From Thiobacillus sp. (GTDB taxonomy: Bacteria > Pseudomonadota > Gammaproteobacteria > Burkholderiales > Thiobacillaceae), in contig JAJPEP010000078.1 of assembly GCA_021166845.1 (NCBI GenBank), forward strand, positions 1-64,000: DNA of 64,000 nucleotides, read 5' to 3'. Shown here piece by piece: positions 4,407 to 38,597 of the stretch. The position numbers and the translations under genes were made by a program. Under the pieces are notes generated by a model. The model ran no database searches, was not told where the DNA came from, and worked only from the letters and a program-made list of their open reading frames with translations. Numbering within the stretch: the first letter of the stretch is position 1; each line of letters begins with the position of its first letter.

Positions 4407-4871
4407 ATGCCAGCAGGACAATTCACACTTTATCGGGCCAACCTCGACGATCTGAGCGTGGCGGACATCGCCGCCGCGGTGGTCAAGGTGGCGCTCGTGG
4501 CGTCCGGCTACACCCCCAATGCAGCCAACAACGGCCATTCCCTGTGGGCGGAGGTGTCGGCCAGCGAGATCGCCAACGGCAACGGCTACGTCACGGGCGG
4601 ATTCACGCTCACCGATAGCGTGGCCCTGGCCACCAACGGACACATGTACGACAGCGACGACCCCACCTGGACCGCCTCCGGTGGCCCCATCCCCGCGTGG
4701 CGCTATGGCGTGATGTATTTGGACGGAACCGTGGCGGGCATGGTCAACCCGCTCGTGGGGTATTTTCTGGGTGACACCGCCCCGGCAGACGTTCCGGCGA
4801 CCTCGGACGGCAACCCGCTTACGATCGCCGTCCCTGCGGACGGCTGGTTCACCGTGACGCAGGGGGTCTAA
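4407..4871 (+). CDS. Phage protein upstream of the DGR receptor gene
   Basis: This 154-residue protein is preceded by AAAGGA and overlaps the DGR target start by one base, so the two are probably co-translated. It is acidic with many Gly/Ala/Thr beta-type stretches (FTLTDSVALATNGHMYDSDD) and has no Cys, signal peptide or membrane segment. The coupling to the variable protein suggests a structural partner, such as a fibre base or adaptor, but I recognise no family. The intact frame and proper spacing support a real gene. Confidence 0.6.
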   Translation: MPAGQFTLYRANLDDLSVADIAAAVVKVALVASGYTPNAANNGHSLWAEVSASEIANGNGYVTGGFTLTDSVALATNGHMYDSDDPTWTASGGPIPAWRYGVMYLDGTVAGMVNPLVGYFLGDTAPADVPATSDGNPLTIAVPADGWFTVTQGV

Positions 4872-6811
4872 TGTCCTTCTCTATCCCCAACTTGGGCGAT
4901 GGCCTCGCTGACGCGCAAAGCCTGCTTTTCCGCCAGCACATCGACGTGCTGGTGGCGGGGGTGGAGGGCACCGGCATCACCAGCGGTTGCGCGGTGGCGC
5001 CGTCGGGCGGGATGGTGCTGTCCGTCGCCGCCGGCGGCGTGGTGCGCGCCGGGGTGGCGGCGGCCACCGCTGCCGGCACGCCCAGCGTCGGCGCCGCCCA
5101 CGCGAGCCTGCCGCGCTTTGACATCGTGGTGATCGCCGCCGGCAACACCGCCACCATCCGCGCCGGCACCGCCGACGCCAACCCGCAGCCACCCACCCTC
5201 ACCGCCGGCGACGTGGCGCTCGCAATGGTCTACGTGCCAGCCGCCGCCAGCGCGATGGCGGCGGGCAACATCGTGGACATGCGGGTGGACGTGCCCAGCC
5301 TGGACGCCCGCGCAGCCGACCATATTGGCGAAGCCGGCACGCAAGGCTTTGGCGTGGGCATCTGCTCCACCCCGCCGGCGGGGATGGCCGGGATGGCCGG
5401 CAACACCGACCCGGCCAGCGACAACTACGGTAACTACCAGTATTCCGACGGCTCGGTGATGGTGTGGATTCCGGGTTTTTACTACCGGATCGGCCACGTC
5501 GACAGCCCAAACTATGCCACCTATGCGGGCAACGCAATCGACATCGCGGCGTATTCAGCCTTTGCCGATGTGGCCGCCGCCAATGCCGCCGGATACGCGC
5601 TGCACCGCGCGTTCTACGATGGCGGCGCGATCAAATCCGGCTTTTTCGTCGACAAATACCAGGCCAGCAACAACGGCGGCGTGGCCAGCTCGATCCGTAA
5701 CGGAAACCCGCTATCCACCAACAGCGCGCACAACCCGATCGGAAGCCTCACCGGGCTGGATGCCGCCGATAATATCTACGGCGGCGTGTTCGAGGCGGCG
5801 AAGACGCGCGGCCCGGCGTTTTTTCCGCTGATGCGCTACCAGTTCGCCGCGCTGGCGCTGCTGGCGATGGCGCATGGGCAGGCGGCGACGTCTGCAACAC
5901 ACTGCGCATGGTATGACCCAGCGCTCGCCATCAATTTTCCAAAGGGCAACAACAACAACGCGCTGAAGGACGTCAACGACACCGCCGTCACCTACGTTTC
6001 GGATGGCTACCCCAACTGCGGCAAGACCGGCAGCGCCACGCCGCTGGCGAAGACAACTCACAACGGCCAGAACTGCGGCGTGGCGGACCTCAACGGCAAC
6101 ATGTGGGAAGTCTCGCCGGGCCTCACCTGCATCGCGGGTTCGGTCGCCATCACCGCCGCGACGCAGGCCAACCCGGTGCAGATCACCGCAGCCGCGCACG
6201 GCCGCACCACCGGCAACATCGTGCAGATTGGCGGCGTGGTCGGCATGACGCAGATCAACGACAAGTTATTCGCCGTCACAGTGATCGACGCCAACACGCT
6301 CACACTCGACGGCTGCGACGGCACCGCGTTCACCGCCTACACCAGCGGCGGCACGCTGACCTTTGGCACGTTCTACGCGCTGTCCACCAGCTACGCCGCA
6401 AAAAACCTCACCGGCGGCAACACGCTGGCCAGCGACCAGTGGGGCGCCACCGGAGTCGCCGCGCACAGCGCCGCGCTGCCGATGACGCTCCGCACCGACT
6501 ACCCGGAGAACGGCTTCGAAAAACGGTTCGGTCGTGGCGCAAACGCCGTGCTCGACGCCGCCACCAGTGGCAACGGATGGGCGCGCACCGCGATGGGGCT
6601 GCCGCTTGCTGCCGGGATTTCGGACGGGGTGACAGGCTCGAACCTGTTCGGCGCCGATCGCCTGTATCAATACCTGCGCAACGAGCTGTGCCCGTTCGCC
6701 GGCGGCCACTGGTACAACTCGTCGTTTGCCGGCGCCTGGGCCGTGAACCTGGCCGGCGCGCGCACGGATTCCTACGACGCTGTTGGTTTCCGTGCCGCCT
6801 CGTATCTTTGA
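4871..6811 (+). CDS. DGR target: variable receptor-binding protein (C-type lectin/FGE fold)
   Basis: This 646-residue protein is the diversified product of the retroelement. Residues 1-150 are Ala/Gly-rich fibre-like sequence with AGTADANPQPPTLTAGDVAL, typical of phage tail proteins. From about residue 180 it has the formylglycine-generating-enzyme/C-type lectin pattern (VMVWIPGFYYRIG; NCGVADLNGNMWEVSPGL), used as a scaffold by many DGR targets. Residues about 420-500 (VQITAAAHGRTTGNIVQIGG) look like an inserted beta domain. The last 38 codons (CPFAGGHWYNSSFAGAW to the stop) are the variable repeat at 6687-6801. The protein probably sits on the virion and contacts the host; the exact virion position is an inference. 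It is followed by a hairpin and avd. Confidence 0.92.
   Translation: MSFSIPNLGDGLADAQSLLFRQHIDVLVAGVEGTGITSGCAVAPSGGMVLSVAAGGVVRAGVAAATAAGTPSVGAAHASLPRFDIVVIAAGNTATIRAGTADANPQPPTLTAGDVALAMVYVPAAASAMAAGNIVDMRVDVPSLDARAADHIGEAGTQGFGVGICSTPPAGMAGMAGNTDPASDNYGNYQYSDGSVMVWIPGFYYRIGHVDSPNYATYAGNAIDIAAYSAFADVAAANAAGYALHRAFYDGGAIKSGFFVDKYQASNNGGVASSIRNGNPLSTNSAHNPIGSLTGLDAADNIYGGVFEAAKTRGPAFFPLMRYQFAALALLAMAHGQAATSATHCAWYDPALAINFPKGNNNNALKDVNDTAVTYVSDGYPNCGKTGSATPLAKTTHNGQNCGVADLNGNMWEVSPGLTCIAGSVAITAATQANPVQITAAAHGRTTGNIVQIGGVVGMTQINDKLFAVTVIDANTLTLDGCDGTAFTAYTSGGTLTFGTFYALSTSYAAKNLTGGNTLASDQWGATGVAAHSAALPMTLRTDYPENGFEKRFGRGANAVLDAATSGNGWARTAMGLPLAAGISDGVTGSNLFGADRLYQYLRNELCPFAGGHWYNSSFAGAWAVNLAGARTDSYDAVGFRAASYL
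6687..6801 (+). repeat. DGR variable repeat (VR)
   Basis: These 115 bases at the 3' end of the target gene align without gaps to 7273-7387. I count 15 differences, all at positions where the template has A, and none at the other 90 positions. At the protein level ten residues differ (I to F; N to H, Y, F, A, G, D, Y and A; D to A) and one change is silent. The last conserved block, GGTTTCCGTGCCG, is the likely start of the homology used for retrohoming. Confidence 0.96.
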
Positions 6812-6836
6812 GGCCATGAGCGATAGCGATATGGCC
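6812..6836. promoter_or_regulatory. Hairpin just downstream of the VR
   Basis: GGCCAT (6812-6817) and ATGGCC (6831-6836) form a 6-bp stem around a 13-base loop, starting one base after the target stop codon and 10 bases after the VR. In studied DGRs a short hairpin or cruciform at this position improves retrohoming. Function here is inferred from position only. Confidence 0.5.
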
Positions 6837-6847
6837 AGGAGCGCGTG

Positions 6848-7270
6848 ATGGGATTGCACAGTGAGGCGACGCTGGATCGGAGGTTCGTGGAATTCGCGCG
6901 GCAGATGAACGCGTACCTCAACCACTTTCCGAAGCACGAGAAGTACGGCCTCGCGCTGGAGATCCGTCGCGCGGCCTATGAGCTGTACGGATTCATTGTC
7001 GAGGCGCAGAAGCGCTATCAAAAGAAAACGTCCATGACCAACATGGACATCCGCCATGAGCAGTTGCGGATGTTCCTGCGGCTGGCGCACGAACTCGGTT
7101 ATTTCGAGTTCAAGGACGGCGCGCGGGTGGAAACGCCCGAGCGCACCGCCGAGCATCGCTACACCACGATTTCACGCATGGTGGACGAGCTCGGCAAAAT
7201 GATCGGCGGCTGGATCGTCGCCGATCGTGAGAAGTCTGCAGCAGTAGTAGCAGTACGGGAAGCGTCTTGA
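6848..7270 (+). CDS. avd: DGR accessory variability determinant (Avd-like)
   Basis: The 140-residue protein is predicted all-helical and basic, with the pattern of Avd/four-helix-bundle proteins: HFPKHEKYGLALEIRRAAYELYGFIVEAQKRYQKKTSM, then DIRHEQLRMFLRLAHELGY. Avd forms a barrel pentamer that binds the reverse transcriptase and the template RNA and is needed for mutagenic cDNA synthesis. The ATG at 6848 with AGGAG six bases upstream is preferred over the adjoining GTG at 6845. The stop codon is two bases before the template repeat, so the RNA containing the template probably also includes the end of avd. It lies between target and template, a classic DGR order. Confidence 0.9.
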   Translation: MGLHSEATLDRRFVEFARQMNAYLNHFPKHEKYGLALEIRRAAYELYGFIVEAQKRYQKKTSMTNMDIRHEQLRMFLRLAHELGYFEFKDGARVETPERTAEHRYTTISRMVDELGKMIGGWIVADREKSAAVVAVREAS

Positions 7271-7272
7271 TA

Positions 7273-7387
7273 TGTGCCCGATCGCCGGCGGCAACTGGAA
7301 CAACTCGTCGAATGCCGGCGCCTGGGCCGTGAACCTGAACAACGCACGCACGAATTCCAACGACAATGTTGGTTTCCGTGCCGACTC
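7273..7387 (+). ncRNA. DGR template repeat (TR) within the template RNA
   Basis: This 115-bp sequence is the invariant donor copy. It holds 25 adenines, many in AAC/AAT codon contexts, of which 15 are changed in the VR. It begins two bases after the avd stop and ends 129 bp before the reverse transcriptase start. The template RNA probably extends into that spacer (7388-7516), which has no other gene; in the well-studied Bordetella phage system the equivalent spacer is needed for priming and binding. RNA ends cannot be read from sequence. Confidence 0.95.
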
Positions 7388-7516
7388 CGCACTTCCTCGC
7401 AGCCGGCAACGGCAGGGTGGAGCAGAGGGAGACGCTTTCCGGCCCTGGGCGAAATCGTTATGCCGGCCGCTTTCCAGTAGGTGCCGTGTTGCACCCGACC
7501 GTCAGCGTGCCGGATC

Positions 7517-8536
7517 ATGAAGCGCCACGGCCATCTTTTCGAGCGCGCGTTCAGCCCGGAGAACCTGCACGCCGCCTATCTGGACGCCAGGAAGAACAAG
7601 CGCGCGACCCGTTCGTGCTTCGGTTTCGAGAAGCGCCTTGGCGCGGGCCTGGCCGAGCTTCGCGAGCAGCTGCACGCCGGCACCTACGCGCCGCTTCCGT
7701 GCAACACTTTCCGCGTCTATGAGCCGAAGCCGCGCCTGATCCACGCACCGGCATTCCGCGACCGCGTGGTGCAGCACGCGATATACCGCGTGATCCAGCC
7801 AATCTTCGACGCCGGCTTCATCGATCAGAGCTTTGCCTGCCGCCCCGGCAAGGGCACGCACGCCGCCGCCGACTACGTGCAGGCCGCGCTGCGGCAGGCG
7901 CCGCGCGACAGCTACCTGCTGCAGCTCGACATCCGCAAGTTCTACTACAGCATCGACCGCACCATACTGCGCGCGCTGATCGAGCGCAAGATCAAGGATG
8001 CGCGCCTGGTCGAGGTGATGATGCAGTTCGCCGCCACGGGCGATCCGGTCGGCGTGCCGATCGGTAACCTGTTGAGCCAGATCTACGCGCTGATCTATCT
8101 GAACCCGCTCGACCACTACGTGAAACGCGAACTCGGTGTGCGCCATTACGCGCGCTATGTCGACGACTTCGTGCTGATCGGCGTCAGTCGCGAGCAGGCG
8201 CTGGAATATCGCGCCGAGATCGTCGGCTTCCTGGCCGACCGCCTGCGCCTGGCGCTGTCGAAAAGCACCATCGCCCGCGTGACGCGCGGCAGCAACTTCG
8301 TCGGCTACCGCACCTGGGCCGGCCGCCGCTTCGTGCGCCGCCACGCGCTCTACACCTTCCGCCGAGCCGCCGCCCGCGACCGGCTTGAATCCGTTGTTTC
8401 ATCCATGGGGCACGCTCGCCGAACAGCTTCTCGCGGCCACATGCTCCGCACCCTGGAGAAAAACCATGCCAACCTCTATCGTCGCCTACCGCAAAGCCTC
8501 AGACCAATACAGCACCTACCAGCTCGACGCGGTTGA
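7517..8536 (+). CDS. DGR reverse transcriptase
   Basis: This 339-residue protein copies the template RNA with adenine-specific errors. Visible motifs include YEPKPRLIHAPAFRDRVVQHA, FACRPGKGTHAA, LLQLDIRKFYYSID (first catalytic Asp), the DGR-type IGNLLSQ (residues 182-188, in place of the QG of retroviral enzymes), YVDD (214-217) and SNFVGYRTW. The C-terminus (SSMGHARRTASRGHMLRTL) matches the family end, so the enzyme appears complete. The start at 7517 is chosen because MKRHGHLFERAFSPENL is the usual N-terminus; upstream codons overlap spacer sequence. The last 71 bases overlap the next gene in a different frame. Confidence 0.95.
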   Translation: MKRHGHLFERAFSPENLHAAYLDARKNKRATRSCFGFEKRLGAGLAELREQLHAGTYAPLPCNTFRVYEPKPRLIHAPAFRDRVVQHAIYRVIQPIFDAGFIDQSFACRPGKGTHAAADYVQAALRQAPRDSYLLQLDIRKFYYSIDRTILRALIERKIKDARLVEVMMQFAATGDPVGVPIGNLLSQIYALIYLNPLDHYVKRELGVRHYARYVDDFVLIGVSREQALEYRAEIVGFLADRLRLALSKSTIARVTRGSNFVGYRTWAGRRFVRRHALYTFRRAAARDRLESVVSSMGHARRTASRGHMLRTLEKNHANLYRRLPQSLRPIQHLPARRG

Positions 8537-8903
8537 CGCCACCGAGCTGTGCGCGATCGACGGCGTAACCTACGTCGCCGTGCCGGACGCCGCCGCGCTG
8601 CCGCCCCAGTCCGCACAGATCGCCGCCAGCGTGGCGGTGGTGGTGCCCGACGCGGTGCTCGCCGCCGCGATCAAGGCCGCCAGCCCGCACGTGCAGCTGA
8701 TCGACCAGCGCATGCGCGAGATGATCCGCGAGAGCTACGACCTGGAAACCGAACTGAAGTACGCCCGGTTCGGGGTGGGCGCGGCGATGGGGATGTATTC
8801 GCCCAGCATCGACGAGATCCAGGAGATCACGGTATACGGAGAATTCGTCGAGAGCGTGCGGCAGTGGGGGCGCGCGGAGCGGGCGAAGCTGGGCTTGATT
8901 TGA
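8466..8903 (+). CDS. Phage protein of unknown function, overlapping the RT gene
   Basis: The 145-residue product starts at an ATG with GGAG nine bases upstream, inside the reverse transcriptase coding region (71-base overlap). The N-terminal half is beta/Ala-rich (LCAIDGVTYVAVPDAAALP). The C-terminal half is helical and charged (LIDQRMREMIRESYDLETELKYARFGVGAAMG...IQEITVYGEFVESVRQW). No signal or membrane segment is seen. It leads a three-gene run of unknown virion-type proteins ending at the terminator at 9765. It may be part of the receptor-binding assembly, but this is an inference from position. Confidence 0.65.
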   Translation: MPTSIVAYRKASDQYSTYQLDAVDATELCAIDGVTYVAVPDAAALPPQSAQIAASVAVVVPDAVLAAAIKAASPHVQLIDQRMREMIRESYDLETELKYARFGVGAAMGMYSPSIDEIQEITVYGEFVESVRQWGRAERAKLGLI

Positions 8904-9764: not shown

Positions 9765-9792
9765 AAAAGCCCGCCGCGTGCGGGCTTTTTTA
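9765..9792 (+). terminator. Rho-independent terminator
   Basis: AGCCCGC and GCGGGCT form a 7-bp stem around CGCGT, preceded by AAA and followed by six T residues. It closes the lysis/DGR unit ahead of the capsid operon. Confidence 0.85.
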
Positions 9793-9804
9793 CGCCCCAA
9801 AACA

Positions 9805-9835
9805 TGCGGAAATTTTTCCCCATGTTCAACCCTTG
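9805..9835 (+). promoter_or_regulatory. Repeated 31-bp upstream element, copy 2
   Basis: This is the second copy of the element at 574-604 (28 of 31 identical), including the GGAAA-TTTCC palindrome. It lies just after a terminator and ends 44 bp before the protease start, the position expected for the promoter of the capsid and tail operon. The activator or polymerase used is unknown. Confidence 0.5.
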
Positions 9836-9879
9836 CCGCGCTTGCAACACTTCGTCCCAGTTCATACGAGGCGAAGACG

Positions 9880-11004
9880 ATGCCAAAAAGCTGGTTCACT
9901 GTTCAGGCACTTGCCGACGGGCGCACGGCCCAGGTGGCGGTGCGCGGCTACATCGGCGAGTGGGGTGTTACCGATCGTGATTTCATCGCGGCGGTGGAAG
10001 CCTTCGGCGAGGTCGACACCATCGAGGTGGCGATCAATTCGCGCGGCGGCGAGGTCGATCACGCGCTGTCGATTTTCAATTTCCTGAAAAACCATCCGGC
10101 CAAGGTCAACATGCGCGTGGACGGGGTGGCGATGTCTGCGGCCTCGATCATCCTGATGGCGGGCGACGATATTGCGATGCCGGCGAACGCGATTTTGATG
10201 ATCCATTCGCCGTCGTCGTTTGCGCTGGGCAATGCGGCCGACCTGCGCCAGGCGGCGGATGTGCTGGACACCTTCGAGTCGGCGCTGCTGGAAACCTATC
10301 AGGCGCGCTCCGGCAAGACCGTGGACGAGCTGAAGACGATGCTGGACGACGAAACCTTCATGACCGCCAAGGAAGCGCTGGCGCATGGCTTTGCCGACCG
10401 CGTGATTCCGCTCAAGGCGGAAGCCCGCGCGGCTTCGGCGGTGGCCTACGCCGCCGCGCTGAACATTCCGCTGGACGTGCTGGTGCGGGCGCAGGCCGAG
10501 GCGCTGGCTTCCGAGTCCGATCCGGCTTCGACCGAGCCTGCGGCGCCGGCACCTGAAGCCGATCCGGCTTCGCCCGAGGCTGCCGCTGCCGCTGCCGCCG
10601 CCCTGGCCGCCGCCGCGATCGAGCCGCCCGCCGAAAGCCTCTCCGCCCACATCGCCACCGCTGCCGCAACCGCCGGCCTTTCCGACTTCATCCCCTGCTT
10701 CGCGCTCGACGCCACGCTGACCGATGCGCCGACGGTGCGGCAGGCGATGGCGGATGCGCGCGAGGTGTTCGATCTGTGCAACCTGGTGGGGCAGACGGAG
10801 CAGGCCGAGCCGCTGATTCGCAAGCGCGCGACGCTGGCGGAAGCCCGCAAGGTGCTGCAGGCGCGCATGGCGGAGATCGATGAGGCCAGCCACACCGACA
10901 GCACCGCATCGCCGCAAGGCAAGCCGGCTGCCGCAGCGACCGCCGCCGCAGTCAGCACGTCCAGCATCTGGGAGTCCCGCCGCAAGGCCGGCGCCCGTTC
11001 ATAA
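9880..11004 (+). CDS. ClpP-type prohead maturation protease with scaffold-like tail
   Basis: The 374-residue protein has a ClpP/S49-like protease domain in residues 1-190 (VAINSRGGEVDHALSIFNFL), with nucleophile Ser86 in GVAMSAAS and His109 in LMIHSPSS. The Ala/Pro/Glu-rich C-terminal half (residues 200-374) has the composition of an assembly scaffold, as in lambda gpC/Nu3. It precedes decoration protein and capsid genes as expected. The start at 9880 excludes in-frame upstream codons that overlap the regulatory element. The enzyme probably degrades the scaffold during head maturation. Confidence 0.92.
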   Translation: MPKSWFTVQALADGRTAQVAVRGYIGEWGVTDRDFIAAVEAFGEVDTIEVAINSRGGEVDHALSIFNFLKNHPAKVNMRVDGVAMSAASIILMAGDDIAMPANAILMIHSPSSFALGNAADLRQAADVLDTFESALLETYQARSGKTVDELKTMLDDETFMTAKEALAHGFADRVIPLKAEARAASAVAYAAALNIPLDVLVRAQAEALASESDPASTEPAAPAPEADPASPEAAAAAAAALAAAAIEPPAESLSAHIATAAATAGLSDFIPCFALDATLTDAPTVRQAMADAREVFDLCNLVGQTEQAEPLIRKRATLAEARKVLQARMAEIDEASHTDSTASPQGKPAAAATAAAVSTSSIWESRRKAGARS

Positions 11005-26314: not shown

Positions 26315-26362
26315 GCCTTCACACGGCGGGGGTCACAGGTTCAAGCCCTGTACTGCCCACCA
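26315..26362 (+). other. Phage attachment site: displaced tRNA-Val(CAC) 3' end
   Basis: This segment folds as the 3' half of a tRNA: anticodon loop TTCACAC (anticodon CAC), T-arm ACAGG/TTCAAGC/CCTGT, acceptor strand ACTGCCC, then A and encoded CCA. The bases upstream hold no D-arm and no matching 5' acceptor strand, so it is not a complete tRNA gene. A phage that integrates into a tRNA rebuilds the gene at one end and leaves the original 3' end at the other, here followed by a terminator. The whole tRNA should lie off-window to the left, beyond the integrase end. Confidence 0.8.
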
Positions 26363-26449: not shown

Positions 26450-29400
26450 TCATTCGGCGTGGCCGGCGGCCTCCCGCGCGGCGCGGCGGCGCATCAGCCA
26501 GTAGGCCGCCGGGACGACGAACCGCGACAGCAGCGGCGCGCTCACCATGCCGCCGATCATGGGGGCGGCGATGCGGCCCATCACTTCGCTGCCGGTGCCG
26601 CTGCCGATCATGATCGGCAGCAGGCCGGCGACGATCACCGCCACGGTCATGGCTTTCGGCCGCACGCGCTGCACCGCGCCTTCGCGGATCGCGTTCTGCA
26701 GGCCCGCTTCGCCGGCCTGTCCGGCGGCCTGTTGCGCGGTCCAGGCGTTCTTCAGATACAGCAGCATGATGACGCCGAATTCGGCGGCGACGCCGGCCAG
26801 CGCGATGAAGCCGACGCCGGTCGCGATCGACAGGTTGTAGCCCATCGCGTAGAGGAACCACACGCCGCCGGTCAGCGCGAACGGCAGGGTGGCCATGATG
26901 AGCAGGGCCTCGTCGAAGCGGCGGAAGGTGAGGTAGAGCAGCACGAAGATGATCGCCAGGGTGGCCGGCACCACGGCTTTCAGCCGCGCGTTGGCGCGCT
27001 GCATGAATTCGAACTGGCCGGAGTAGGCGATGCTCATGCCGGGTTCGAGCTTGACGCCGGCGGCCACGGCCTGCCGCAGGTCGGCCACGGTGGACGCGAG
27101 ATCGCGTCCGCGCACGTCGACGTACACCCAGCCCGACAGCCGCGCATTCTCGCTTTTCAGCATCGGCGGCCCCTCGCTGAGCCTGACCGCGGCCACCATG
27201 CCGAGGGTGATCTGGCTGCCGCCGGGGGTGAGGATGGGCAGCGCGGCGAGCTTTTCGGGGGTGTCGCGCCATTCGCGCGGGTAGCGCACGTTGATCGGGT
27301 AGCGCGCCAGCCCCTCGACGGTCTCGCCGATGTTCTCGCCGCCGATCAGGCTCGCCACCACCGATTGCACGTCGGCGACGTTGAGGCCGTAGCGCGCGGC
27401 GGCGGCGCGGTCGATGTCGATGTCGACGTAGCGTCCGCCGGTGAGCCGTTCGGCGAGCGCGGACGACACCCCCGGCACGGTGCGGGCGATGCGCTCGACC
27501 TGCTGCGCGACGCGGTCGATGTCGGCCAGGCTGGCGCTGGCGATTTTCACCCCGATCGGGCTCTTGATGCCGGTGGCGAGCATGTCGATGCGGTTGCGGA
27601 TGGGCGGCACCCAGATGTTGGCCAGCCCCGGCACCTGCACCGCGCGATCGAGTTCCTCGACCAGCTTTTCCGGCGTCATCCCCGGCCGCCATTCTTCGCG
27701 CGGCTTGAACTGGATGATGGTCTCGAACATTTCCAGCGGCGCCGGATCGGTGGCGGTCTCGGCGCGTCCGGCCTTGCCGTAGGCGCTCGCCACCTCGGGC
27801 ACGCTGCGGATCTGGCGGTTGGTCTGCTGCAGCAGCTCGGACGCCTTCTGCGCCGACAGCCCCGGCAGCGCGCTCGGCATGTAGAGCAGGTCGCCTTCGT
27901 CGAGCGGCGGCAGGAATTCACCGCCGAGGCGGCTGATCGGCCAGGCCGCGCTGAGAAAAACCAGGGCGGCGGCGACCAGGGTGATTTTGGGGCGCGCGAG
28001 CACCGCGTCGAGCAGCGGCCGGTAGGCCCGGATCATCCAGCGGTTGAGCGGATTCCTGGTTTCGTCCGGGATGCGGCCGCGGATCCAGTAGCCCATCAGC
28101 ACCGGCACCAGCGTCACCGACAGCGCGGCGGCGGCCGCCATCGCATAGGTCTTGGTGAAGGCGAGCGGGCCGAACAGGCGGCCTTCCTGCGCTTCCAGGG
28201 TGAACACCGGAATGAACGACAGGGTGATGATGAGAAGCGAGAAGAACAGCGCCGGGCCGACCTCGCTGGCGGCGTCGACGATCACCCGCCAGTGCGCCTC
28301 GCCCTGCAGGGCCTTGCCGGGGTGCCTGTGCTGCCAGGCCTCGATGTGCTTGTGCGCGTTTTCGATCATCACCACGGCGCCGTCGACCATCGCGCCGACC
28401 GCAATCGCGATGCCGCCGAGCGACATGATGTTGGCGTTGATGCCCTGCTGGCGCATGACGACGAAGGCGATCAGCACGCCCAGCGGCAGCGAGACGATCG
28501 CCACCAGCGAGGAGCGCAGATGCCACAGGAACAGCGCGCACACCAGCGCCACCACGATGAACTCCTCGATGAGCTTGTGGCTGAGGTTGTCGATGGCGCG
28601 GTCGATCAGCGCGCTGCGGTCGTAGGTGGTGACGATCTCGACGCCCGGCGGCAGGCTGGCCGTGAGCGTTTCGAGCCGCGCCTTGACCGCCGCGATGGTC
28701 TCGCGCGCGTTCTGGTCCGAACGCAGGACCACCACGCCGCCGACGGCTTCGCCTTCGCCGTCGAGCTCGCCGATGCCGCGCCGCATTTCGGGACCGGTGC
28801 GGATCGTCGCCACGTCGCCCAGCGTCACCGGCGTGGCGCCCGCGAGCCTGAGCGGGATGGCGCGGAAGTCGGCCAGGCTTTCGAGATAGCCGCTGGCGCG
28901 CACCATGTATTCGGTTTCGGCGAGTTCCAGCAGCGCGCCGCCGCTTTCCTGGTTGGCGTCGCGAATGGCGGCGATGGCCGTCTGGTGCGGGATGCCGTAG
29001 GCGGCAAGCTTCACCGGGTCGAGCACCACCTGGTACTGCCTGACCATGCCGCCGATGGACGCGACCTCGGCCACGTTCGGCAGGGTTTTCAACTCGTATT
29101 TGAGGAACCAGTCCTGGATCGACCGCAGCTGCGCCAGGTCGTGACGGCCGGTTCGATCCACCAGCGCGTACTGGTAGATCCAGCCGACGCCGGTCGCGTC
29201 CGGGCCGAGGGCGGGCTTGGCACTGGCGGGCAGCCGCCCCTGCACCTGGCTGAGATATTCCAGCACGCGCGAGCGCGCCCAGTACAGGTCGGTGCCGTCC
29301 TCGAAAATCACGTACACGAAGCTGTCGCCGAAAAACGAGTAGCCGCGCACCGTCTTCGCGCCCGGCACCGACAGCATGGTGGTGGCGAGCGGATAGGTGA

Positions 29401-29593
29401 CCTGGTTCTCGACGATCTGCGGCGCCTGCCCGGCGTAGGGCGTACGGATGATGACCTGCACGTCGGACAGGTCGGGCAGCGCATCGATCGGCGTCGTCTT
29501 CACCGACCACACGCCCCAGGCCACGACGAACAGCGTCGCCAGCAGCACCAGGAAACGGTTGCCTACCGACCAGCGGATGAGGTTTGCGATCAT
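26450..29593 (-). CDS. cusA: Copper/silver efflux RND transporter CusA
   Basis: The 1,047-residue protein is a heavy-metal RND pump of the CusA (monovalent Cu/Ag) branch. The N-terminus [20 protein letters not shown] starts the first membrane helix. The characteristic [38 protein letters not shown] and [27 protein letters not shown] segments follow. The central membrane domain carries [17 protein letters not shown] and the C-terminal one [18 protein letters not shown]. Trimers in the inner membrane take up Cu(I) or Ag(I) from periplasm and cytosol and pass it to CusB/CusC. The start overlaps the cusB stop by four bases. Full length; no damage is visible. Confidence 0.95.
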
Positions 29594-34995: not shown

Positions 34996-35120
34996 AGCAG
35001 GCCGAATTACGGTGCATCCATCCGACGAATGCGGGTTAATCGGTATGGCTGCGAGCAGGCTCGATGCCTAACAATCCAGGATCAATGGGTCACGATCGGC
35101 CTGCCCGGCGATCGATGATC
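34996..35120 (+). repeat. Leader repeat, copy A
   Basis: This stretch downstream of the transglycosylase (starting CAGGCCGAATTACG and including GGCTCGATGCCTAACA and CAATGGGTCACGATCGG) is an imperfect direct repeat of about 38,807-38,920. Copy A precedes the cytochrome gene, copy B the two-receiver regulator. It marks a duplication and may carry promoter sequence. Confidence 0.65.
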
Positions 35121-35153
35121 GAGTCGATCCGGTATGCCATGGGGAGGAGCATC

Positions 35154-38100
35154 GTGTATCCACAAAAATACAGTCTGCGGTACGCCGTGGCATTCATCAG
35201 CATATTCTGCGGCCTGGGTTTCACCGTGCTTCAGGCTGCAAGCTTTTCCATCACGAAAGCGGAATGGAGCAGCAAGGGCGGCGGGGAACTGCGCGTCGAG
35301 GGCGCCGGTAACAACGGCAGTACGGTAATCATCAAGAATGCGGGATCCGGCGCCGTGATCGGCAGTGCCAGGGTCGATGGCAAGGAACGCTGGAAAAGGA
35401 CCATCAAGAAGCCCTCGCCGCCGCCCTGCCGTGTCCGCGCCGAGCAGTCGGATGGCAGCATCGCCGAACTCGATGTGAGCAACCGTCCCGCCAATTGCGG
35501 CCCGGCGACCGGCCTGCCCAGCCTGTCGATCGACAACGTCACTGTCACCGAAGGCGGTGCCGCCCGCTTCACGGTCAGCCTGTCGGCCGCCAGTACGCAG
35601 ACGGTCACCGTGGTCGCGAACACCGCCGACGGCACCGCCGTCGCTCCCGGGGACTACACCGCGCGCAGCAGCGTCACGCTGACCTTCCCGGCCGGAACCA
35701 CGACCCGGACCTTCGCGGTGACCACCGTCAACGACACCGTGGCGGAAGCGACCGAGACCTTCACCGTCATCCTGAGCGCCGCCGCCCGCGCCACCCTGGC
35801 CGACGCACAGGGGGTCGGGACCATCCTGGACGACGACGCCGCGGCTCCGCCGACGGTATCGATCAACCAGGAACTGAGGGTCATCGAAGGCGGCACCGCC
35901 AACTTCACGGTCAGCCTGTCGGCCGCCAGAACGCAAACGGTGACGGTTGTCGCCAGCACGGTCAACGATACCGCCACGACTCCGGCCGATTACACCGCGC
36001 GCACCAACGTGACCCTGACCTTCGCGCCCGGCGTTACGACGCAGACCTTCGCCGTCGCCACCATCGACGACGCCCTGCTCGAATTCGACGAGACCTTCAA
36101 GGTCACCCTGAGCAATCCGGTCAACGCCGTCCTCGGGAATGCCCTGGGCGAGGCCCATATCCTCGACAACGACACGCCGTTGACGCTGTCAATCGGCGAT
36201 GTGCAGATCACGGAGGGCGCCAGCGCCAACTTCACGGTCAGCCTGTCCGGGGCCAGCCTGATGACGGTGACCGTGGTCGCCAGCACCGCCAACGGCACTG
36301 CCGCCGTGCCCGATGACTACACCGCGCGGACCAACGTGACCCTGACCTTCGCACCCGGCACCATCACCCAGACCTTCGCGGTCGCCACCGTTGACGACAC
36401 GGCGGTGGAAAATACCGAGACCTTCACCGTCAACCTGAGCGGCGCCACCCACGCCACCATCGAAGACGCGCAAGGGGTGGCCACCCTCCTCGACAATGAC
36501 CAGGCCGGCGCGCGACCGAATGTCTCGATCAACTCCACCAGCCAGAACCGGGCCCTGTTTCCGGGTACGGCGGTACCGCAACAGACCCCGACTACCGCGA
36601 CTGGCTTCCGTGTCCTGGCGGTCAACGACCTGGGCATGCACTGCGGCGACCTGGATACCCGCATCACCAGTATCCTTCCGCCGTTCAACGTCCTCCACGC
36701 GCAGGTCGTGCAACGCGGCAGCACTGGCGCCAGCCGGCCGGTCAAGCTGGGGGAGAGCCAGGTGATCGTGCGCTACTCCGCGTCCGCCAACCCCAACGAT
36801 CCGGTGCTGAGCCTTCCGGGTTCGATCCTCGACCCGGAATTCAACGGCGCTTTCAAGACCAGCTTCTGGGATGTCGCCCGCATCGCCTACGACCCGTTCT
36901 ATCCGGAGGGCGTCCTGCCGCAGTTCTACCCGCCAACGGCCAATATCCTCGATCTGGGACTGCCGGTTCCGGACCTGGAACGTCTCTACCTGGGCGACGG
37001 GCAGCTCCATGCCGACCAGCAGGAAATGCCTGGACGCGGCTTCCCGTACGGTATCAACATGCCACGGACCTTCACCCAGTTCATCGGCACCCAGCCGTTC
37101 TTCACCTTGTTCCCGTTCGGCTACGTCGCCCCGGTCGGCTGGTTCGAGGCGGCCGGCATTCCGATCACCGTCTTCGACGACTTCGGCCGCGAGAACGCCT
37201 ATCCGCTGATGCGGGTCCAGGCCACGGCCGCGCCCGGCAACACCCTGGGCGTCGCCGCCGGAACGGTGCTGGCTTCGGTCGATGCCGTGGTTCCGGTCTC
37301 GGGCGAGGCGGACTGCCAAGCCTGCCACGCCGCCCCGGCGGACGGCGGCAACGGCTCCGGCGTGACCCGCCTGGGCAGCGCGGTCGCGGTCTCGATCGAC
37401 GACCCGCAGTTCGGCTCCATCCCGCAACCGGTCAGTGTCGAGTGGGCGGCCGACAAGAACCTGCTCAAGCTGCATGACGCCAAACATGGGACCGCGCTGA
37501 TCTCCGGCACGACGCAGGATTTTCCGTCGCCCGGCGCCACCGCGTTCAAGCCCGTGGTCTGCCAGACCTGTCACTACACCCCGGCGCTCGATCTGGCCCA
37601 TGTCGGCCCCAACGATGCCAATGGCCGCAGCCAGAGCAACCGCAAGAGCATGTCCGCGGTCATGCACGCGTCACATGCCAACGTGACCGGCACCGATGGC
37701 CAGCGGTTATTCCCGGAGATGCCGCCGCCGGTCGGCCGCGGTGCCGCCACCGCCCGGCAGACGCTGGAACAGACCTGCTACCAGTGCCATCCGGGCAAGC
37801 GCACCCAGTGCCTGCGCGGCGCGATGGCGCAGGGCGGTTCGGTCTGCCAGGATTGCCACGGCGACATGGCCCAGGTCGGCGACGACTTCTCGCGCCTTCA
37901 GCCGGGCGGCGGCTTCATCCTGGCGCCGGACTACTACACCAACCCCAGCACCCCGCGCGTACCCTGGGCCAACCAGCCCGGCTGCGGTTCCTGCCATACC
38001 GGCGATGCCTTCTCCAACATTCCTTCGACGGGGGTCTACAAGGCGTCGGACAACATCCGCCTGCTGCAGGCGTGGCGCATCGGCGATCCCAAGGCCGCGC

Positions 38101-38597
38101 CGATCGTGCCGGCCAACAAGCGGTTCGCCGAGAACGTGGTCACGACAGCGGAAAACGCCGCGGCGGCGGGCAATCCCAAGCTGTACCGGGTAAGCACCGG
38201 CCACGGCGGGATGTCCTGCCAGTCCTGCCACGGCTCGACCCACGCCGAGTGGTCTTCCAGCCCGGAGAACCCGAACGCCAACGACAACCTGGCGGCAACC
38301 CAGCTGCAGGGCCATCCGGGCGCCATCATGGAGTGCAACACCTGCCACACGGCCTTCACCGGGACGAATTTGAATGGCCCGCATGGAATGCACCCGGTCG
38401 GCAACAGCACCTGGATCAGCCAGCACAAGGAAATCGCCAAGACAACGGCGCAAAAAAACACCTGCCGCGCCTGCCACGGCATGACCGGACAGGGTACGCC
38501 GTTGTCCAGAGTGCCGGTCGCGCGCACGGTGGGTACCCGGAGCTTCGCCAAGGGCGAGCAGGTCACCTGCACCAAGTGCCACAGCAACAAGCTGTAA
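35154..38597 (+). CDS. Secreted Calx-beta / nine-haem cytochrome c
   Basis: This protein of about 1,147 residues begins with a signal sequence (LRYAVAFISIFCGLGFTVLQA). A GTG at 35154 preceded by GGGGAGGAG is the preferred start; ATGs at 35115 and 35139 are alternatives. After an Ig-like segment come three Calx-beta repeats (residues about 120-450), each with VTEGGAARFTVSLS and AEATETFTVILS patterns that bind Ca2+ in the family. Residues about 480 to the end contain nine CXXCH haem sites (CQACH, CQTCH, CYQCH, CQDCH, CGSCH, CQSCH, CNTCH, CRACH, CTKCH). The layout suggests a surface or periplasmic electron carrier attached through Calx-beta modules. It is flanked by the two copies of the leader repeat. 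Confidence 0.88.
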   Translation: MYPQKYSLRYAVAFISIFCGLGFTVLQAASFSITKAEWSSKGGGELRVEGAGNNGSTVIIKNAGSGAVIGSARVDGKERWKRTIKKPSPPPCRVRAEQSDGSIAELDVSNRPANCGPATGLPSLSIDNVTVTEGGAARFTVSLSAASTQTVTVVANTADGTAVAPGDYTARSSVTLTFPAGTTTRTFAVTTVNDTVAEATETFTVILSAAARATLADAQGVGTILDDDAAAPPTVSINQELRVIEGGTANFTVSLSAARTQTVTVVASTVNDTATTPADYTARTNVTLTFAPGVTTQTFAVATIDDALLEFDETFKVTLSNPVNAVLGNALGEAHILDNDTPLTLSIGDVQITEGASANFTVSLSGASLMTVTVVASTANGTAAVPDDYTARTNVTLTFAPGTITQTFAVATVDDTAVENTETFTVNLSGATHATIEDAQGVATLLDNDQAGARPNVSINSTSQNRALFPGTAVPQQTPTTATGFRVLAVNDLGMHCGDLDTRITSILPPFNVLHAQVVQRGSTGASRPVKLGESQVIVRYSASANPNDPVLSLPGSILDPEFNGAFKTSFWDVARIAYDPFYPEGVLPQFYPPTANILDLGLPVPDLERLYLGDGQLHADQQEMPGRGFPYGINMPRTFTQFIGTQPFFTLFPFGYVAPVGWFEAAGIPITVFDDFGRENAYPLMRVQATAAPGNTLGVAAGTVLASVDAVVPVSGEADCQACHAAPADGGNGSGVTRLGSAVAVSIDDPQFGSIPQPVSVEWAADKNLLKLHDAKHGTALISGTTQDFPSPGATAFKPVVCQTCHYTPALDLAHVGPNDANGRSQSNRKSMSAVMHASHANVTGTDGQRLFPEMPPPVGRGAATARQTLEQTCYQCHPGKRTQCLRGAMAQGGSVCQDCHGDMAQVGDDFSRLQPGGGFILAPDYYTNPSTPRVPWANQPGCGSCHTGDAFSNIPSTGVYKASDNIRLLQAWRIGDPKAAPIVPANKRFAENVVTTAENAAAAGNPKLYRVSTGHGGMSCQSCHGSTHAEWSSSPENPNANDNLAATQLQGHPGAIMECNTCHTAFTGTNLNGPHGMHPVGNSTWISQHKEIAKTTAQKNTCRACHGMTGQGTPLSRVPVARTVGTRSFAKGEQVTCTKCHSNKL

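Follow-up and report, generated by a model that had tools for sequence, protein, structure and literature searches.

The first 64,000 nucleotides of a Thiobacillus sp. contig (JAJPEP010000078.1 of assembly GCA_021166845.1, here C91:1-64000; this whole stretch is called the window) carry a prophage, its left part cut off by the contig start, in which a fibre-like gene precedes a reverse transcriptase (RT) gene. The question raised by this locus is whether it is a complete and working diversity-generating retroelement (DGR), and which of its genes belong together. With a probability of about nine in ten, the locus is a complete DGR in the prophage of a tailed phage and works as in phage BPP-1. 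The DGR itself belongs to the known BPP-1 type, which is thereby extended to a prophage with the element in its head-gene region, and the copy in the window is presumably active.

The variable repeat (VR, 6687..6801) and the template repeat (TR, 7273..7387), both defined by repeat comparison and, like all features of the cassette, on the forward (+) strand, are 115 nucleotides (nt) long and differ at 15 positions, all of which are among the 25 adenines of TR and none among its 90 other positions. The probability that all 15 mismatches fall at adenine by chance is 1.4e-12 (hypergeometric), and the substitutions are A>G in six cases, A>T in five and A>C in four. They alter ten residues at the C-terminal end of the target protein and change one codon silently. 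VR ends at 6801, and the target stop codon occupies 6809-6811; the last mismatch, at 6798 near the 3′ end of the repeat, could be a difference between the initiation-of-mutagenic-homing sequences IMH and IMH* instead of a product of mutagenesis.

The order of the cassette is the target gene with VR, a hairpin, avd, TR, a spacer, the RT gene and a further gene, g8466, so that the conserved cassette extends past the RT gene and ends at 8903. The avd gene (6848..7270, 140 residues; Pfam, NCBIfam and PHROG) matches Pfam bAvd (PF22296) with 61.1 bits, the cut-off being 40, and its stop codon (7268-7270) places it directly upstream of TR. The RT gene (7517..8536, 339 residues from its ATG) matches RVT_1 with 68.4 bits and the PHROG reverse transcriptase with E 3.3e-107. 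DGR-type RTs are marked by the motifs [IL]GxxxSQ and YxDD. The frame of the window RT is open and contains IGNLLSQ at residue 182 and YVDD at residue 214, which we take to be these DGR-type motifs, and IGxxxSQ is found in 95 of 98 RT matches.

If the scheme is taken over from BPP-1, an RNA spanning TR and the structured spacer would be bound by RT and Avd, and the TR RNA would be copied into cDNA with random bases opposite the template adenines. At the end of the target gene, VR would be exchanged for this cDNA, with the identical 3′ end and the DNA hairpin behind the stop codon as guides, and TR would remain unchanged throughout. As a result, the lectin-type ligand face of the fibre-like protein would display a changed set of residues.

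The target gene (4871..6811; profile, alignment and structure-model searches) encodes a fibre-like protein of 646 residues. Its C-terminal three quarters are conserved from about residue 152 in 55 aligned targets; the first 150 residues or so are not common to the nearest relatives and represent an exchangeable N-terminus, which matches the N-terminal regions of baseplate, head and tail proteins in PHROG. The structure model is confident from residue 146 on, and its top three PDB matches are chains of TaqVP (5vf4; E 2.6e-14 to 6.9e-14), given in the accessible part of its description as a prophage DGR target with an FGE-subtype C-type-lectin fold and inserts (PMC6328139). The PDB matches that follow are ubiquitin-activating enzymes, which can be explained by a nested E1_FCCH-like domain at about residues 425-497 (6143..6361), recognized by PF16190 (36.9 bits, residues 441-497), by the structure model and by alignment. 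The C-terminal part of the target is predicted from the model to adopt an FGE-subtype C-type-lectin-like fold into which the E1_FCCH-like domain is inserted. At this site, 22 of the 55 aligned targets have a long insert and 33 a short loop, and Pfam E1_FCCH reaches E 0.01 in 14. The target is a probable receptor-binding or adsorption protein.

An earlier note on this DNA had described the target, VR, hairpin, avd, TR and RT in this order, 15 differences confined to the template adenines, ten changes in a lectin/FGE-type end of a phage protein, and a locus that appears to have been active. Family matches and coordinates find all these parts intact and in order, a recount of the repeats agrees, the TaqVP matches identify the lectin-type end, and past activity is supported by the adenine-only differences and the intact parts. 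The hairpin and the completeness of the cassette likewise stand, but the unusual, G-A-interrupted form of the stem and the fifth gene (8466-8903) had been overlooked.

Relatives of the element show directly that VR diversifies while TR stays constant. The RT relatives sampled are 118 loci, comprising 80 from IMG/VR (the best 80 of 286) and 38 GTDB contigs, and 97 of them have a usable repeat pair. Over 98 pairs, the window and near-duplicates included, VR differs from TR at 1671 of 2822 TR adenines (slightly inflated by repeat edges extended over A) and at 72 of 8459 other TR positions. Among 51 locus pairs with RTs more than 93% identical and TRs of equal length, 33 pairs from six contig groups have the same RT, the same TR and the same sequence over up to 300 nt in front of VR but differ in VR at 1-23 sites, and 424 of these 437 differences fall at TR adenines; the other pairs are either identical throughout (6) or differ in RT, TR or flank (12). 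The check that the earlier note had proposed, VR variation with constant TR, thus comes out as expected when run on relatives. Its second proposal, a search of the genome with TR for further variable repeats, gives only what was already known: in the host's own 3.2-Mb draft genome (86% complete), no second VR or DGR is found with a 2.7-kb DNA query, and an A-masked 32-nt TR pattern, with at most three mismatches, finds only the VR and TR of the window. Two further RTs in the draft genome (C34, C42) match RVT_1.

Two observations concern individual relatives. In L004, the nearest relative by RT (90% identical), the 5′ end of TR is shortened (L004:4420-4520), so that it has about 30 nt less than the window TR, and this truncated TR seems to have worked, because 14 of its 19 remaining adenines differ in VR. 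L079 and L083 are identical in RT and TR, yet differ at 161 of the 300 nt directly before VR; they represent one DGR with a recombined target.

The TR-to-RT spacer (7388..7516), the 3′ part of the template RNA, has a conserved, covarying RNA structure. The structure common to 30 relatives contains 17 pairs, 11 of them with compensatory changes on both sides, and its alifold value is -15.4, compared with -0.16 (standard deviation 0.50) for shuffled columns. A covariance model (R1) recovers the spacer from 42 of 44 held-out RT loci and from Pseudomonas phage Bise; its match in L124 is weak, and it finds nothing in L110, in L117 or in any of ten loci without a usable RT. At gathering thresholds, Rfam recognizes nothing in the window.

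The hairpin behind VR (6812..6836) has an outer stem of six pairs (GGCCAT/ATGGCC), tandem G-A/A-G mismatches, an inner stem of two pairs, a GATA loop and one unpaired T. In the available part of their article (PMC3240598), Guo et al. describe post-VR hairpins that combine GC-rich stems of 7-10 bp with GRNA loops; adding 2 nt to the loop caused a strong drop. The GATA loop of the window fits GRNA. Hairpins of the G-A type occur in 43 of 71 distinct post-VR segments, with an outer stem of at least three pairs in 27 and a shorter one in 16, and a canonical hairpin with an unbroken stem of at least six pairs occurs in 12. The inner pairs of the G-A type are GC/GC in 32 cases, GT/AC in seven and AC/GT in four; because the search rule itself required pairing of the inner two bases, the weight is carried by shuffled segments and not by this covariation alone, and shuffling yields per set 0.02 long G-A, 0.00 short G-A and 0.06 canonical hairpins. 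To judge by the G-A-interrupted hairpin, natural stems may vary more widely than the rule derived from the described elements allows. A five-codon frame at 6831-6848 starts in the 3′ arm of the hairpin and ends in TGATG across the avd start, and in many relatives the avd start lies inside the hairpin arm.

Several points weigh against the view that the locus is a complete DGR working as in BPP-1. The window stem departs from the unbroken 7-10 bp stem of BPP-1-type elements, as far as these are covered by the available part of PMC3240598, and 16 of the 71 relatives have neither type of hairpin by the criteria used. The spacer of BPP-1 itself is missed by covariance model R1, and the window avd, at 75.3 bits, misses the cut-off of the NCBIfam Avd model (80) by 5 bits. 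The N-terminal 145 residues of the target have a predicted local distance difference test score (pLDDT) below 50, and therefore the position of the protein in the virion gains no support from the model. For the g8466 family (55 aligned), the PDB yields nothing and neither Pfam nor PHROG a convincing match. Finally, no sister genome of the window phage was found, and none of the RT relatives among the best 80 of 286 exceeds 90% identity.

VR might have been diversified formerly by an element that is now silent in the lysogen or in the lineage. Relatives without RT show that DGR loss happens, and the prophage, as a domesticated fragment at a contig edge with its left part outside the contig, may be defective. 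Such a relic is nevertheless unlikely in view of the state of the cassette: Avd, RT, TR, spacer and hairpin show no damage, the RT has no internal stop codon and retains the catalytic YVDD, and the spacer, at 135 bits, has the highest score among all sources searched, with the reservation that the training set includes the window. A working DGR of the BPP-1 type remains the better account.

The relatives without RT also bear on the gene behind the RT. The gene g8466 (8466..8903), which encodes an unannotated protein of 145 residues, shares 71 nt with the end of the RT gene and accompanies the fibre gene whether or not a DGR is present. A tblastn relative of g8466 lies behind the RT in 91 of the 118 RT loci, or in 91 of the 113 that have at least 300 nt beyond the RT match. 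In a scan of 59 loci based on g8466, an RT lies in front in 46 (only an RT end in two of them, L211 and L259) and none in nine, and four loci are too short. A scan based on the target used the best 80 of 165 loci with near-duplicates kept; loci with the match at or near the locus end were left out (L293, L319, L322, L331, L335, L336, L350, L355 and L362), and of the 71 that entered six were too short, which leaves 65 assessable. RT and g8466 are both present in 42 of these, RT only in four, g8466 only in 15 and neither in four, so that g8466 follows the target in 57. Because it stays behind the target in the 15 loci without a usable RT, g8466 is, judged from sequence, most simply a partner of the fibre gene that is retained when the DGR is missing.

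The RT-less loci could alternatively represent an ancestral empty site, the window lineage having gained the DGR by insertion between the fibre gene and g8466. No scrap of avd or RT is left in 13 of the 19 target-scan loci without a usable RT, some of which have a clean junction of 35-60 nt, as in L209, whose sequence ceases to match the window at 6799, where VR ends, and matches it again from the beginning of g8466 onwards; the hairpin is missing in 12 of the 19. However, pieces of avd or RT are kept in the other six, all of which also have the hairpin, and L211, which is on the same contig as L290 and outside those six, keeps an RT tail with a stop codon. The only other RT-less locus with the hairpin is L304; among RT-bearing target loci, of which 23 of 46 were scanned, 20 have it. 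Moreover, compared with the nearest TR, the 17 informative RT-less VRs are mismatched at a fraction of 0.47-0.73 of the adenines and 0.09-0.39 of the remaining positions (L320 and L343, at 0.55 and 0.59, are too diverged for this comparison), a bias like that of RT-bearing VRs compared with the TR of another locus (medians 0.63 and 0.18), whereas TR compared with TR gives 0.07 and 0.18. This evidence is strong but falls short of proof, because TR adenines may mark sites that are free to vary otherwise. An empty site is about as improbable as a silent relic, and the RT-less relatives are most simply explained if the DGR was deleted repeatedly and the tip was thereby frozen, because the tips stay adenine-shifted in 17 of 19 loci and scraps of avd or RT persist in six.

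In fragmentary RT-less contigs, a DGR could still act in trans. The targets of L231 and L235 (434-2959 in both) are almost identical, with 14 differences over 2526 positions, 13 of them close to VR, and no RT was found in these short contigs; the difference may reflect recent diversification in trans or recent loss of the DGR. In L218:2314-3000 and L253:2345-3000, the place of avd, TR and RT is taken by a different sequence, the minus strand of which resembles, by eye, the start of an HNH-type endonuclease gene.

The DGR core, from the hairpin through avd, TR and spacer to RT, behaves like a module that can be taken out from between the fibre gene and g8466, and its deletion freezes the tip. 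Going further, we suggest tentatively, at somewhat less than even odds, that the stable unit is the receptor-binding fibre plus g8466, and that the DGR core, with a G-A hairpin of the lineage's own, is slotted between them, kept while ligands are being searched and deleted to lock the tip. Relatives with an active DGR, with scraps or with none at one junction provide natural before-and-after pairs for phages that cease to diversify. In a search of mostly open-access literature, we recognized no description of g8466, of a G-A-interrupted DGR hairpin or of DGR loss beside a retained partner gene.

The overlap with the RT end and the frequency of g8466 behind RTs would also suit an accessory protein of the DGR that serves retrohoming. 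This role is slightly less probable still than the silent relic and the empty site, since g8466 follows the target in 15 of the 19 loci without a usable RT, is absent from four of the 46 with RT, and is lacking in RT loci of Campylobacterota and others; in addition, avd, TR, brt and a target suffice for the BPP-1 DGR to work in E. coli, according to the available part of the source (PMC12875486). As a partner of the fibre, g8466 may help to fold or mount the target and is a putative fibre chaperone. Four of 55 family members weakly match PHROG 11820, a tail assembly chaperone (best E 0.0011). The structure model of g8466 (pLDDT 96) has a single match, to an unnamed viral model (E 1.5e-5), and none among the solved folds of the PDB, and tblastn in annotated phages finds no match at E 0.01. 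Conserved and staying with the fibre after the DGR is gone, g8466 is a candidate for the role of enabling highly variable fibres to fold. Lastly, an ordinary partial duplication shaped by selection on the binding site, without an adenine-directed process, would account for changes in the binding-face region but is already contradicted by the placement of 15 of 15 changes at adenine, one of them silent, and by a like bias in the 98 loci and in contig pairs identical in RT, TR and flank.

In the prophage, the cassette lies between the portal gene (853-2334) and the head protease gene (9778-11004), with an endolysin gene ahead of it. Among capsid relatives (the best 80 of 174), none has a match to RT, avd, the target C-terminus or g8466; portal and protease are both found in 54, with a gap between them of less than 2.5 kb in 41 and of 3.4-7.1 kb in 13. 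Because four of ten proteins tested from eight of the wide gaps match tail-fibre PHROGs, this gap seems to be a place where surface genes are exchanged and where the window lineage received one bearing a DGR. The portal, protease and capsid of the window phage are shared with only 2, 1 and 2 of the 118 RT-bearing loci, respectively. A search of 117 genomes of the host family finds the element only in its own genome, the next RT matches being 37-42% identical or less, and the phage collection contains no near DNA match. The right end of the prophage is probably near 26360, before an AcrB-family chromosomal gene (26450-29593). A sequence at 26328-26361 resembles, by eye, the 3′ end of a tRNA (T arm and CCA) and is likely a remnant of an attachment site; ARAGORN finds no whole tRNA there. 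In the host part of the contig, an open frame of 1177 residues (35064-38597) matches Calx-beta domains and a multihaem cytochrome c.

Compared with known systems, the window element is like the BPP-1 DGR (mtd-avd-TR-brt) in the order of target with VR, hairpin, avd, TR, spacer and RT and in the position of TR directly behind avd. BPP-1 Brt and the window RT are 38.2% identical over 99% of the query, and the spacer measures 144 nt in the BPP-1 annotation and 129 nt in the window. In both, the next gene overlaps the RT end, but that of BPP-1 (bbp4, 82 residues) is unlike g8466 in sequence when compared by eye. The window further differs from BPP-1 in the tandem G-A mismatches of its stem, in a target N-terminus that is not Mtd-like, in the position of the cassette between portal and head-protease genes, and in a spacer whose model, R1, does not reach that of BPP-1.

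Closest in the phage collection is Pseudomonas phage Bise (OR683401), the RT of which is 57.6% identical and is preceded by a four-helix-bundle (Avd) gene, and the spacer RNA of which is found by the covariance model at 1.8e-22. Unlike the window prophage, Bise has a contractile-tail genome, lacks a g8466 match and carries a DNA adenine methylase gene after the RT. The same cassette as in the window occurs in L004, L005 and L006 of IMG/VR (RT 90, 83 and 78% identical, among the best 80 of 286), where homology runs from about target residue 150 through the end of g8466 and the target N-termini differ. TaqVP of Thermus aquaticus (5vf4) shares 17% identity with the window target, and the E1_FCCH-like insert is the window protein's.

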